Shown piece by piece: positions 5,674-8,107 of a DNA stretch of 50,045 bases (positions are counted from its first letter, which is position 1; each line of letters starts with the position of its first letter). The notes below the pieces were generated by a model. That model was not told the DNA's origin. It did not search any database and saw only the letters and a program-made list of their open reading frames with translations. The stretch is taken from contig JAUTXP010000042.1 of NCBI GenBank assembly GCA_030837965.1, positions 1 to 50,045 of the forward strand, in the 5' to 3' direction. This stretch comes from Acidimicrobiaceae bacterium (GTDB lineage: Bacteria > Actinomycetota > Acidimicrobiia > Acidimicrobiales > JAUTXP01). A program made the position numbers and the translations under genes.

Positions 5674-6114
5674 ATGGTTGTCCTCTACGGGATCGTTGCG
5701 CTGGTGGTGGCCTTCGCCCTCGCTGCGGCCGTCATCGGTCGGGAGGCCCGCCGCCTCGACGCCTCGCCGCCCAACCCCACCTTCGACATCGACGAGGCGG
5801 TGGCCTGGATCGCCGAGCAACTCCCGTTCGAGGTCAGCGCCGTCCTCAGCCACGACGACGTGCGCCGCATCATCGACTGGAACCTCGAGTTCTTCCGCCT
5901 CAAGGGCGTGTCCGGCAACGGGCACGCGGCGGCAGCCGAGGGCCCTGTCGTCGTCGGCGGCGCGGAGACGGTCGACTACGTGCTGGCCCGGGCCGACGCG
6001 GTGGGCGTCGACTACACCGCGACCCAGGTCCACGCCGTGCTCGACGCGCAGATGAGCTACCTGGAGGCGATCGGCGCCATCGGCCCCGAGGTCGATCCAG
6101 GCGACGCGAGCTAG
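5674..6114 (+). CDS. Small single-pass membrane protein, unknown function
   Basis: A 146-residue protein I do not recognise. An N-terminal hydrophobic helix (about residues 4-25, LYGIVALVVAFALAAAVIG) would anchor it with the rest probably in the cytoplasm. The remainder is acidic and helical (DEAVAWIAEQLPFEVSAVLSHDDVRRIIDWNLEFFR) with a second block near the C-terminus (ATQVHAVLDAQMSYLEAIGAIGPE). A GTG at 5662, in frame, would add four residues. It is divergent from rpiB and convergent with the next gene. Clean coding frame and neighbour spacing support a real gene. Confidence 0.8.
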   Translation: MVVLYGIVALVVAFALAAAVIGREARRLDASPPNPTFDIDEAVAWIAEQLPFEVSAVLSHDDVRRIIDWNLEFFRLKGVSGNGHAAAAEGPVVVGGAETVDYVLARADAVGVDYTATQVHAVLDAQMSYLEAIGAIGPEVDPGDAS

Positions 6115-6136
6115 AGGCTGCGCCGATCGCGCAGCC

Positions 6137-6176
6137 GTGGCCCGAGCGGCCCCGGCGGCGGAGCCGCCAAGAGCGG
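6137..6176. repeat. Intergenic GC-rich hairpin repeat, copy 1
   Basis: A 40-bp element starting GTGGCCCGAGCGGCC and ending AGCCGCCAAGAGCGG contains the perfect hairpin GGCGGC-gga-GCCGCC. It lies between convergent stops at 6114 and 6182, where a bidirectional terminator would be expected. A near-identical sequence recurs, with an internal duplication, at 8045-8107. Confidence 0.7.
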
Positions 6177-6181
6177 AAGCC

Positions 6182-6490
6182 CTAGAACGCGCGCACCACC
6201 GCGCCCATGATGAGCGACAGCGCGTTGGCGGCCAGCACGATCGTCAGCACGTCCTCGAACCGCCGCTCACCGCACACGAACAGCGCGGCGATGACGACCT
6301 CGATCAGCCAGGCGATGGGCTCGCCGACGATCGCGGGAATGGGCAGCACGATGAAGATCAACGGGTGGGTCACGAGGTTGCCGACCACGCCCGCGGCCAG
6401 GCCCCGCAGCCCGAGCCCGCCCCAGTACACCGGCACCTCGACCGCCAGCGTCAGGGCCAGCGCGCCCGCGTAGCCGTCGGGGACCCGCAT
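6182..6490 (-). CDS. Small polytopic membrane protein, unknown
   Basis: A 102-residue hydrophobic protein with three or four predicted membrane helices (ALALTLAVEVPVYWGG; GVVGNLVTHPLIFIVLPIPAI; IAWLIEVVIAALFVCG; FEDVLTIVLAANALSLIMGAVV). No family recognised. The ATG at 6490 is preceded on the minus strand by CATACT about 8 nt upstream, which fits a leaderless promoter. It is divergent from another multi-pass membrane protein whose start lies only 31 bp away. Confidence 0.78.
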   Translation of the reverse strand: MRVPDGYAGALALTLAVEVPVYWGGLGLRGLAAGVVGNLVTHPLIFIVLPIPAIVGEPIAWLIEVVIAALFVCGERRFEDVLTIVLAANALSLIMGAVVRAF

Positions 6491-6508
6491 GGCGGGCCAG
6501 TATGCCGG

Positions 6509-6514
6509 TACCCT
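6509..6514 (+). promoter_or_regulatory. Probable -10 box of a leaderless transcript
   Basis: TACCCT fits the TAnnnT -10 consensus and lies exactly 7 nt before the GTG at 6522, the spacing expected when transcription begins at the start codon. No Shine-Dalgarno sequence is present. Confidence 0.5.
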
Positions 6515-6521
6515 CGCCGCC

Positions 6522-7472
6522 GTGACGGCCATCGACGCGGCGGCGATCCCCGCACCCCGCGCCCGCCTCGACACGCCGACCGCCGACCTGGCCCTCATCG
6601 CCGCCACCGCGCTGCCGCTCGCCGTCTCCTTCCCGATCGCCACGTCCATCGGCGCGCTGGTCGCCTTCGGCCTGGCCCACACGTTCCTCGAGCTGCGCTG
6701 GGTCCTCGCCCGCTTCCGCCCGCTGCTGAGCTCGCGCTTCATGGCCGCCGCCTGCGTGCCCGCCACCGCCATCGCCGCGGCGCGCCTGCTCGGCCTGGCC
6801 CGCCCAGTCGAGATCACCGCGGGCTTCGGCCTGGTGGTCATGGGTTTGGCCTACGGCCGAATGACGGGCCGGGTTCCGGCATCGTCAACCGTGGTCGCCG
6901 GAGCCGCGCTCGCCGCGGGCCTGGCCCTGTCGCTGCGGACGCCGGGCATGTACGGCATCGTCCTCGCCCACCTGCACAACGTCGTGACTGCTGTGCTGCT
7001 GTGGCACTGGCGCCCCGACCGCAGGCTGCGGACCGGGCTGTTGATCGCGTACGCGGCCGTGCCCGCGCTCGTGCTCATTGGGGCGGTCGACCCGCTGCTG
7101 CCCTCGCACCTCGCCCGCACCGGGCCGACCCACCTGTTCGCCGCGTCGGTCACCCCGCCCGCGTGGGCGGCCACGACCCTCGGCATCCGGGTGGCGGCCG
7201 TGTTCGCCTTCCTGCAACTCGTCCATTACGGCGTGTGGTGCTGGCTCTTGCCCCGCCGCGACCCGGCGCCGCGGCCAACCCGAGCGGCAGGCCAGGCCGG
7301 CCAGGTGCCCGTCCTCGCCGTCCTGGCCTTCGCAACGGCGCTGCTGGCCCTGGTCTTCCGGGCCGACTACGCCACCGGCCGCACCCTCTACGGGTCGCTG
7401 GCCACGTACCACGCCTACCTCGAACTGCCCGTCGTCCTCATGCTCCTCGGAGGTGCCCATGTTCCTCGCTGA
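6522..7472 (+). CDS. Polytopic integral membrane protein, unknown
   Basis: About 316 residues, almost entirely hydrophobic, with roughly eight membrane helices. Histidines cluster in or near helices (FGLAHTFLELRW, LAHLHNVVTAVLLWHW, LVHYGVWCWLLP, TYHAYLELPVVL). Such a His pattern can mean metal binding; a distant resemblance to Brp/Blh-like carotenoid oxygenases crossed my mind but is not strong enough to name it. The GTG at 6522 is preferred over the ATG at 6489 because a TAnnnT box sits 7 nt upstream. The end overlaps the next small gene, so the two are likely translated together. Confidence 0.8.
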   Translation: MTAIDAAAIPAPRARLDTPTADLALIAATALPLAVSFPIATSIGALVAFGLAHTFLELRWVLARFRPLLSSRFMAAACVPATAIAAARLLGLARPVEITAGFGLVVMGLAYGRMTGRVPASSTVVAGAALAAGLALSLRTPGMYGIVLAHLHNVVTAVLLWHWRPDRRLRTGLLIAYAAVPALVLIGAVDPLLPSHLARTGPTHLFAASVTPPAWAATTLGIRVAAVFAFLQLVHYGVWCWLLPRRDPAPRPTRAAGQAGQVPVLAVLAFATALLALVFRADYATGRTLYGSLATYHAYLELPVVLMLLGGAHVPR

Positions 7473-7650
7473 TGCCGCCCCATCCGGATCGGGCTTCGCC
7501 ATCATCGGCGTGATCTTCCTCGTCTTCATCCTCGTGTGCCTCGGCCTGGTCGCGCTGCTGGTCCGGTTCTTCCTGCGTCGCAGGCACCGCCACGACCCGC
7601 CGCCCGCGCCGCCCAAATCGCCCGAAGAGGAGGATCTGCGCACCGATTGA
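7459..7650 (+). CDS. Small single-pass membrane protein
   Basis: A 63-residue protein with one strong membrane helix (about residues 12-36, SGFAIIGVIFLVFILVCLGL onward) followed by a basic stretch RFFLRRRHRHD and a Pro/Glu-rich tail. By the positive-inside rule the tail is cytoplasmic. It starts 14 bp before the end of the preceding membrane protein, behind a perfect GGAGGTG Shine-Dalgarno at 7449-7455, so it is a translationally coupled partner. Function unknown. Confidence 0.82.
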   Translation: MFLADAAPSGSGFAIIGVIFLVFILVCLGLVALLVRFFLRRRHRHDPPPAPPKSPEEEDLRTD

Positions 7651-7656
7651 AAGTGC

Positions 7657-7685
7657 GCGACAAAGGCAGGGCCGTTGTGTATCTT
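7657..7685 (+). promoter_or_regulatory. Sigma-70-type promoter for the 7692-7905 transcript
   Basis: GCGACA (7657-7662) and TATCTT (7680-7685) are spaced by 17 bp, matching four of six and five of six bases of the major sigma consensus. The implied transcription start is about 7692. It lies just after the small membrane gene and before a stretch with no convincing ORF. Confidence 0.5.
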
Positions 7686-7691
7686 GGGCGG

Positions 7692-7905
7692 CACCAGAGA
7701 AAGGAGGTGGTCCACCTGCATAGTGAAAGTCGTGGGACCCTGGAGGTGGCTGGCCGCTAGTCGGCTCGCTGGACCTTCTGGCGACACCCAGCCAGTTACC
7801 GCTCGGAACACCAAGTCAGGAGTTGGTCCCGCCTGACGCAGCAAGGCGACCGAGACCTTTCCAACGAACATCTTGAGAGGGCGCCTTCGGGCGCCCTCTC
7901 GCTTT
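7692..7905 (+). ncRNA. Candidate structured small RNA or leader-peptide transcript
   Basis: A promoter, about 210 nt without a convincing ORF, and a strong intrinsic terminator define a small transcription unit. It begins with a perfect Shine-Dalgarno (AAAGGAGGTGGTCC, about 7699-7712) and a palindrome AGGTGG-T-CCACCT, but no ATG/GTG/TTG stands at normal distance. A CTG 7 nt downstream would give a roughly 15-residue peptide ending at TAG 7759. A GTG at 7721 opens about 37 codons with a poor SD distance. Long-range pairing TGGCTGG (7747 onward) with CCAGCCA, and GTCAGG with CCTGAC, suggest structure. I do not recognise an Rfam family. Confidence 0.45.
7875..7905 (+). terminator. Strong intrinsic terminator with UUCG loop
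   Basis: An 11-bp perfect stem (GAGAGGGCGCC / GGCGCCCTCTC) closed by a TTCG tetraloop and followed by GCTTTGTG. It is among the clearest terminators in the window and defines the 3' end of the small transcript. Confidence 0.85.
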
Positions 7906-7975: not shown

Positions 7976-8044
7976 CCGTTCTGGTGCCCAAAAGCGGACC
8001 GAGCACGGCGGGCCGGTTAAGAGGGCGAGCCGATAGGCGAGCCC

Positions 8045-8107
8045 GTGGCCCGAGCGGCCCGGCGGCGAAGCCGCCCGAGCGGCCCGGCGGCGAAGCCGCC
8101 AAGAGCG
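8045..8107. repeat. Intergenic GC-rich hairpin repeat, copy 2 with internal duplication
   Basis: This repeats the element at 6137-6176. Here the unit CGAGCGGCCCGGCGGCGAAGC is present twice in tandem, and the block again ends AGCCGCCAAGAGCGG. Each unit contains the hairpin GGCGGC-gaa-GCCGCC. It lies between the small RNA unit and the next plus-strand gene, in a 200-bp GC-rich spacer that also contains two copies of CGGCGG(G)CCGGTTAAG (about 8007-8024 and 8175-8189). Confidence 0.7.

Follow-up and report, generated by a model that had tools for sequence, protein, structure and literature searches.

A conserved mini-ORF beneath a covarying pseudoknot in a divergent Ms_IGR-5 RNA: a candidate translation-gauging micro-mRNA of Actinomycetota

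Introduction

Ms_IGR-5 (Rfam RF02471) is catalogued among the small non-coding RNAs from Actinobacteria, with no function assigned there. It corresponds to SLIV_16488 in S. lividans and to ncMSMEG15794c in M. smegmatis (PMC10454040), and has been reported as expressed in S. lividans, S. avermitilis and M. smegmatis. The evidence for its expression in Streptomyces (PMC8079986, PMC8780764) includes an sRNA transcription unit in Streptomyces avermitilis (PMC8780764). As far as the title of Li et al. 2013, cited in PMC10454040, indicates, IGR-5 originated from a heterologous-Hfq screen. For M. abscessus and M. smegmatis alike, a Ribo-seq study reports reads from ribosomes on MS_IGR-5, together with footprints on the 6C and F6 RNAs (PMC4974804); such footprints can stem from structured RNA.

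Another stand-alone structured actinobacterial RNA of 200–300 nt is Ms1/MTS2823/scr3559, which lies beside HAD-hydrolase genes and binds the RNA polymerase core (PMC4191392, PMC9130861). PMC10454040 lists IGR-5 and Ms1 as two different RNAs, and none of the RNAP-bound RNAs named in the consulted passages of PMC11077062 is IGR-5.

Two kinds of cis-acting systems resemble the locus described here. Leader-peptide attenuators and uORFs combine a short ORF and a strong Shine-Dalgarno (SD) sequence overlapping RNA structure with a terminator that follows. The infC mRNA, with its AUU start, and the rpsO mRNA, whose pseudoknot holds a trapped 30S subunit, offer parallels in their poor start codon and in ribosome capture on a pseudoknotted initiation region. 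We compared with these systems a short unit in the window, that is, the whole 50,045-nucleotide stretch of Acidimicrobiaceae bacterium DNA analysed.

Results

Architecture of the unit

The sequence at 7657–7905 reads as a discrete unit comprising a promoter −10 element, AAAGGAGGTGGTCC, a folded body and a terminator hairpin. All elements that an earlier note had described as forming a promoter-to-terminator unit are present:

7657–7662, + strand: −35 candidate GCGACA, weak in the window copy
7680–7685, + strand: −10-like element TATCTT, its position conserved upstream of helix P1 in 30 same-order loci and in Actinomycetes
7692–7900, + strand: RNA unit, a predicted transcript with its 5′ end near 7692, based on conservation and an RF02471 match at 7693–7814
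7875–7900, + strand: terminator hairpin GAGAGGGCGCC-TTCG-GGCGCCCTCTC of 11 bp with a UUCG loop, read from sequence; a G+C-rich hairpin occupies the same place in most relatives

In Actinomycetes the promoter upstream of P1 takes the form TTGCCG-18-TAgcGT, of which the same-order group shares the −10. A scan of the unit with an E. coli-type promoter consensus returned zero scoring sites, as expected for a promoter of non-E. coli type. The conserved promoter position places the RNA 5′ end at P1, which would therefore stand at the very start of the transcript. The T run after the terminator hairpin is short. When the unit was folded against shuffled sequences, its z-score was −2.9, and 3 of 200 shuffles folded as well.

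Identity with Ms_IGR-5

At curated cut-offs, a search of the whole window against Rfam gave zero matches, and no tRNA or tmRNA was found. With the cut-off lifted, RF02471 aligned to 7693–7814, the only good place for it in this genome, with 31.8 bits (E 1e-5), which lies below the gathering cut-off of 45 bits. That cut-off is passed by a same-order relative (L006, 56.9 bits), itself a blastn homologue of the window unit (E 1e-33), and by an Acidimicrobiaceae locus (L089, 47.0 bits); matches above it also occur in Mycolicibacterium, Micromonospora, Nocardioides and others. The window copy has the RF02471 features in their order, namely P1, the extended SD, a GAGGTGGCTG-CCGCTAG core and helix P3. 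Because L006 and L089 pass the cut-off, the window unit is identified by sequence as a divergent Ms_IGR-5 homologue below the formal threshold. The homology of the unit is well supported, as is the mini-ORF described below. The present reading differs from that of Rfam, where Ms_IGR-5 is treated as a plain sRNA.

The genes surrounding the RNA differ between lineages. In Mycolicibacterium it has an Aminotran_4 gene on one side and a THAP4-type heme-binding gene on the other, a location that agrees with the naming of IGR-5 as ncMSMEG15794c (PMC10454040). It is also compatible with the surroundings of Rv0812, an aminodeoxychorismate lyase; the paper on this enzyme also names MSMEG_5795 (PMC8105722). 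The window RNA lies outside this context, which is no formal requirement for the family, its neighbours being small ORFs with no assignment, an Amidohydro_2 gene and an alpha/beta hydrolase gene. Such variation among the groups compared favours a trans-acting or a housekeeping RNA.

A match to an actinobacterial sRNA had raised the suspicion of an Ms1/6S identity, which we rejected on locus and synteny. Ms1 adjoins a HAD hydrolase (PMC9130861), and the HAD-hydrolase/oxidoreductase synteny of Ms1 is absent from both the window and the Mycolicibacterium loci, the latter having Aminotran_4 and THAP4-type genes instead.

Distribution across Actinomycetota

With the 249-bp unit as query, blastn was run on 59 genomes, each representing its own family within the same order, and 41 of them gave a match. 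Thirty of the matched sequences were aligned (alignment A1) and used to build a covariance model, R1, which matched 118 of 198 genomes of the order and, at the level of the phylum, 128 of 396, with matches both in further families of the same class and in additional classes. The conservation across Actinomycetota that the earlier note had proposed to look for by covariance search is thus present in both the blastn and the covariance-model results, but its suggestion of an undescribed RNA family fails, the family being homologous to RF02471. An exact pattern scan of named genomes matched at least 119 contigs; the 80 matches listed include Mycobacterium, Nocardioides, Micromonospora, Amycolatopsis, Blastococcus, Cellulomonas, Actinomadura and Streptosporangium, other Actinomycetota, some of them uncultured, and one Acidimicrobiaceae MAG (L089) closely matching the window copy, a resemblance that suggests placement of the window in Acidimicrobiia.

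Four same-order genomes with no blastn match (G002, G014, G018 and G029) each have one AAGGAGGTGGTCC site, so the RNA is probably more frequent in the order than these matches show. Many same-order genomes that gave no match in the phylum and order searches are small (1.5–2.5 Mb), which suggests loss in reduced genomes. Carriage by phages or plasmids was considered and rejected: phage matches were nil, and one Nocardia replicon is listed as a plasmid.

An extended Shine-Dalgarno sequence

The ribosome-binding element is nearly invariant among homologues, in keeping with the weight that the earlier note had placed on it:

7700–7713, + strand: extended Shine-Dalgarno sequence AAAGGAGGTGGTCC, complementary along 14 nt to the 16S 3′ tail, one of the pairs being G-U

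The pairing partner is the tail sequence GGATCACCTCCTTT, taken from relatives because the 16S 3′ end was not found in the assembly of the window genome, so the 14-position complementarity rests on those relatives. In some homologues an A replaces the G of the G-U pair, making the match to the 16S tail perfect. This genome contains a single copy of AAGGAGGTGRTCC, and about one copy per genome was found both for AAGGAGGTGGTCC, in 40 relatives, and for the GGTGGTCC form of the SD, in relatives. Where checked, copies of AAGGAGGTGATCC coincide with the 16S-tail sequence on the other strand.

A few relatives have a second AAGGAGGTGGTCC site (G005:C41, G008:C107, G028:C79 and G037:C177), which may represent paralogous RNAs or chance. 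Separately, same-order homologues (L002–L014) contain a segment, GCTGGACCACCTGG, that is similar to the 16S 3′ tail and complementary to the SD of the same RNA; the window counterpart, at 7766–7780, is degraded to GGACCTTCTGG.

A conserved mini-ORF

Side-by-side reading of the homologues revealed that a conserved CCGCTAG ends an open frame starting right after the SD. In the window this frame corresponds to the short CTG-started peptide at proper distance from the SD that the earlier note had pointed out:

7716–7760, + strand: mini-ORF with CTG start, 14 codons plus TAG, encoding MHSESRGTLEVAGR; kept in 195 of 195 distinct homologues, and recovered in the frame control and the divergent set

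Its codons are CTG CAT AGT GAA AGT CGT GGG ACC CTG GAG GTG GCT GGC CGC TAG. Among 97 distinct sequences, 92 have an in-frame ATG, GTG, TTG or CTG 7–13 nt after GGAGG, and in-frame stops occur in none. In the frame control, the other two frames had starts in 0–3 and stops in 20–65 sequences per group and frame. The spacing from SD to start varies by single bases and the length from start to stop by whole codons. All 195 distinct homologues have an ORF of 10–17 codons with its stop at a fixed place, whether TAG (171), TGA (18) or TAA (6). Start codons are mostly non-AUG: TTG in 90, ATG in 41 (21%), CTG in 31, GTG in 16, and ATC, ATT, ATA or ACG in 17. The last residue is Arg in 168 of the 195.

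Sixteen weaker model matches had at first been set aside. One is a false match, and the other 15 have the SD and a mini-ORF of 10–18 codons, many of them in a frame shifted against the GGAGGTG motif (LGDHCGGGSS and VISDSTGSGGTSG, each followed by a stop, are examples). Altogether more than 200 relatives thus have the ORF, which is kept even where the peptide is not. With its frame maintained against indels, its stop codons switching and the other frames closed, the mini-ORF behaves as protein-coding sequence does. That the Ms_IGR-5 lineage carries a conserved mini-ORF is well supported, and its translation is predicted, the ribosome footprints on MS_IGR-5 (PMC4974804) being indirect evidence. 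The open-access literature searched on Ms_IGR-5 mentions neither the mini-ORF nor the kissing pseudoknot, and the mini-ORF appears to be new relative to what is known of this RNA.

Longer frames were considered and rejected. A 37-aa GTG ORF at 7723–7836 is unconserved, with indels and stops in many relatives, which agrees with the earlier statement that the unit contains no normal ORF. Beyond the mini-ORF stop, the frame has no clear preference over the others, so that the longer read-through ORF named in the earlier note as contrary evidence is not seen.

The codons between the start and the paired region, which we refer to as free codons, have an unusual composition. Serine accounts for 32% of them (AGY 176, TCN 88), compared with 3–12% in the other frames. 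Asp, His, Asn or Tyr make up 29%, Trp is missing, and Ala, Val and Gly are few. Their G+C content is low at codon positions 1 and 3 (0.35 and 0.34), with nothing similar in other frames. Across all homologues they are mostly AGT, CAT, GAT, TCT, TGT, TAT and AAT, codons expected to be rare in such G+C-rich genomes. This bias may mean that slow or unstructured codons are needed here, or that the peptide has to be polar.

Fold and kissing pseudoknot

The RNA is predicted to form the following helices, several of which use bases of the mini-ORF:

7694–7697, + strand: helix P1, 5′ strand CCAG, pairing with 7740–7743; compensatory changes over 193 homologues
7740–7743, + strand: helix P1, 3′ strand CTGG, inside the mini-ORF
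7734–7739, + strand: kissing strand GGGACC, inside the mini-ORF, pairing with 7825–7830; covariation
7745–7754, + strand: helix P3, 5′ strand GGTGGCTGGC, inside the mini-ORF, pairing with 7791–7800; 96% of cells paired and two-sided changes on A1
7791–7800, + strand: helix P3, 3′ strand GCCAGTTACC; A1 pairing counts
7755–7760, + strand: helix P4, 5′ strand CGCTAG, containing the stop codon, pairing with 7778–7783; 88% of cells paired, within the order only
7778–7783, + strand: helix P4, 3′ strand CTGGCG; A1 pairing counts
7802–7806, + strand: possible helix P5, 5′ strand CTCGG, pairing with 7850–7854; in the sequence and by eye in relatives
7850–7854, + strand: possible helix P5, 3′ strand CCGAG; sequence inspection
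7815–7837, + strand: hairpin P6, GTCAGG (7815–7820) with CCTGAC (7832–7837); two-sided changes at all six pairs on A1
7825–7830, + strand: kissing loop GGTCCC in P6, pairing with 7734–7739; covariation

P1 is paired in 93–95% of 193 homologues, and A-T, C-G and G-C pairs replace one another at the same positions; when the strands were slid, pairing fell mostly to about half or less, near-invariant positions excepted. Just 5′ of the P1 3′ strand, a four-base core of the ORF covaries with the loop of a hairpin in the 3′ domain, the core:loop pairs including GGAC:GTCC, TGAC:GTCA, CGAC:GTCG, AGAC:GTCT and GAAC:GTTC. Among sequences with a non-GGAC core, 36 of 50 have the complement in a loop, compared with 17.6 (maximum 26) in 1000 shuffles. 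On A1, the structure including the pseudoknot has 92.3% of cells paired, against at most 47.6% when slid, and its 13 pairs with two-sided change were reached by 0 of 500 shuffles. Covariation was counted by simple shuffles, and kinship inflates these counts, though many pair types are seen. P1 and the kissing pseudoknot covary strongly, and the long-range pairing suspected from the single sequence is thereby confirmed. Since P1, the kissing contact and P3 use ORF bases, translation and folding exclude each other.

Two further pairings were tried. A start-codon hairpin, P2, formed by the SD tail with GGAC plus inner pairs, was rejected: its inner part (mean z −0.3) was hardly above shuffles, leaving the GTCC:GGAC possibility, which competes with the kissing contact. 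In a best-fit search for P3 over all homologues, the control fitted nearly as well; only the alignment-based P3 counts are therefore used here.

Proposed function and alternative explanations

We propose that the unit is a stand-alone micro-mRNA of the Ms_IGR-5 lineage whose folding reports translation initiation, a proposal whose chances we judge evenly balanced. One promoter would drive an extended SD and a weakly started ORF of 10–18 codons, followed by a structured 3′ domain and the terminator. In the free RNA, P1, P3 and the kissing contact between the ORF and the P6 loop would lock the ORF, with the SD displayed in the P1 loop. A 30S subunit would grip the SD through about 14 base pairs and would then have to start on a poor codon, CTG in this copy. 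Upon initiation, the ribosome would open the kissing contact, P1 and P3 and finish at the stop, at the P3/P4 junction; if initiation failed, the fold would stay closed, possibly with the 30S trapped. The RNA would thus be folded or translated according to the initiation state, which could in turn set its stability or partner binding. We infer a switch, an output of that switch and a regulatory role for it.

This proposal builds on the P1 3′ strand, the kissing strand and the P3 5′ strand all lying inside the ORF, because of which a ribosome has to undo the fold in order to translate and the fold in turn has to hinder translation. The published ribosome footprints on MS_IGR-5 in mycobacteria (PMC4974804) and its reported expression also speak for the proposal. 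By analogy, a strong SD combined with a poor start and a pseudoknot spanning the ORF is the layout of a 30S trap or an initiation gauge. In infC and rpsO a full gene is controlled in cis, whereas here the sole ORF has 10–18 codons and no gene follows in the transcript. The serine content of 32% points the other way, indicating a compositionally selected peptide, which a pure switch does not need.

The same composition would be explained if the micropeptide itself were the product, a serine-rich peptide with a conserved end (..T-x-E-V-x-x-R) that acts on a target while the RNA structure only tunes its synthesis. The serine bias over other frames and the terminal Arg in 168 of 195 homologues agree with such a role; however, the conserved C-terminal residues come from codons whose bases P1, the kissing contact and P3 also require, and in divergent homologues a shifted frame yields ..GGGSS or ..GGTSG while the RNA features stay. 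We consider this explanation unlikely, if worth keeping in view. The opposite emphasis, on the SD rather than the peptide, leads to a decoy, a hibernation or titration RNA whose SD sequesters 30S subunits and whose mini-ORF merely lets ribosomes leave. A near-invariant 14-nt complementarity to the 16S tail at about one copy per genome, poor start codons in most homologues and the ribosome reads on MS_IGR-5 (PMC4974804) are in line with it, and through these published footprints the earlier idea of an RNA titrating ribosomes or anti-SD gains support. Yet a decoy would require no kept-frame ORF ending at a fixed stop and no covarying pseudoknot spanning that ORF, and titration requires RNA copy numbers near those of ribosomes; we regard it as distinctly improbable.

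The remaining explanations look beyond the transcript for a target. A trans-acting base-pairing sRNA that also carries an ORF would account for the stand-alone transcript with variable neighbours, and it accords with the heterologous-Hfq screen named in the title of Li et al. 2013. We think such a dual-function RNA very improbable, as the most conserved bases are explained by the SD, the ORF and internal helices, and no conserved free seed region was identified in the unit. To a terminated leader-peptide attenuator of the downstream gene we give hardly any credence. Downstream genes are co-directional in most same-order loci, but the downstream gene is convergent in Mycolicibacterium, neighbours differ between groups, and in Streptomyces avermitilis the RNA is an sRNA transcription unit (PMC8780764). 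Here, unlike in attenuators and uORFs, the transcript ends at its terminator with the next gene distant, and no downstream gene is common to the groups compared. A classical leader-peptide gene acting in cis, as the earlier note had envisaged, is thus not borne out, given the strong terminator behind the ORF and the convergent gene in Mycolicibacterium.

Returning to the initiation-gauge proposal, a broader version would make these RNAs a phylum-wide class of micro-mRNAs in which translation of the mini-ORF opens the fold and the gauge has its output in trans. We offer this tentatively, as falling a little short of an even balance; within it, the gauge could sense free 30S subunits, initiation factors or the integrity of the 16S 3′ tail. 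Its distribution hints at a part in general translation physiology, and the phylum concerned counts antibiotic producers and major pathogens among its members. If correct, a gauge micro-mRNA would represent a hitherto undescribed kind of regulatory RNA, and a clear case of selection keeping the translation of a tiny ORF, as opposed to a sizeable protein, with an exceptionally extended SD serving a 14-residue peptide. Point changes in the SD, start codon or stop would then allow a direct test of its function in Streptomyces or M. smegmatis.

Genomic surroundings

Compared with relatives, the window has at 6489–7650 a membrane-protein ORF and a small TM ORF 5′ of the RNA, for which a Pfam search of the ORFs in that interval gave zero matches. 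These ORFs separate the RNA from a syntenic upstream hypothetical gene, whose homologue lies at about 5678–6114. A dispersed G+C-rich repeat resembling GTGGCCCGAGCGGCCCGGCGGCGAAGCCGCC-AAGAGCGG occurs upstream at 6135–6180 and, doubled, downstream at 8040–8106.
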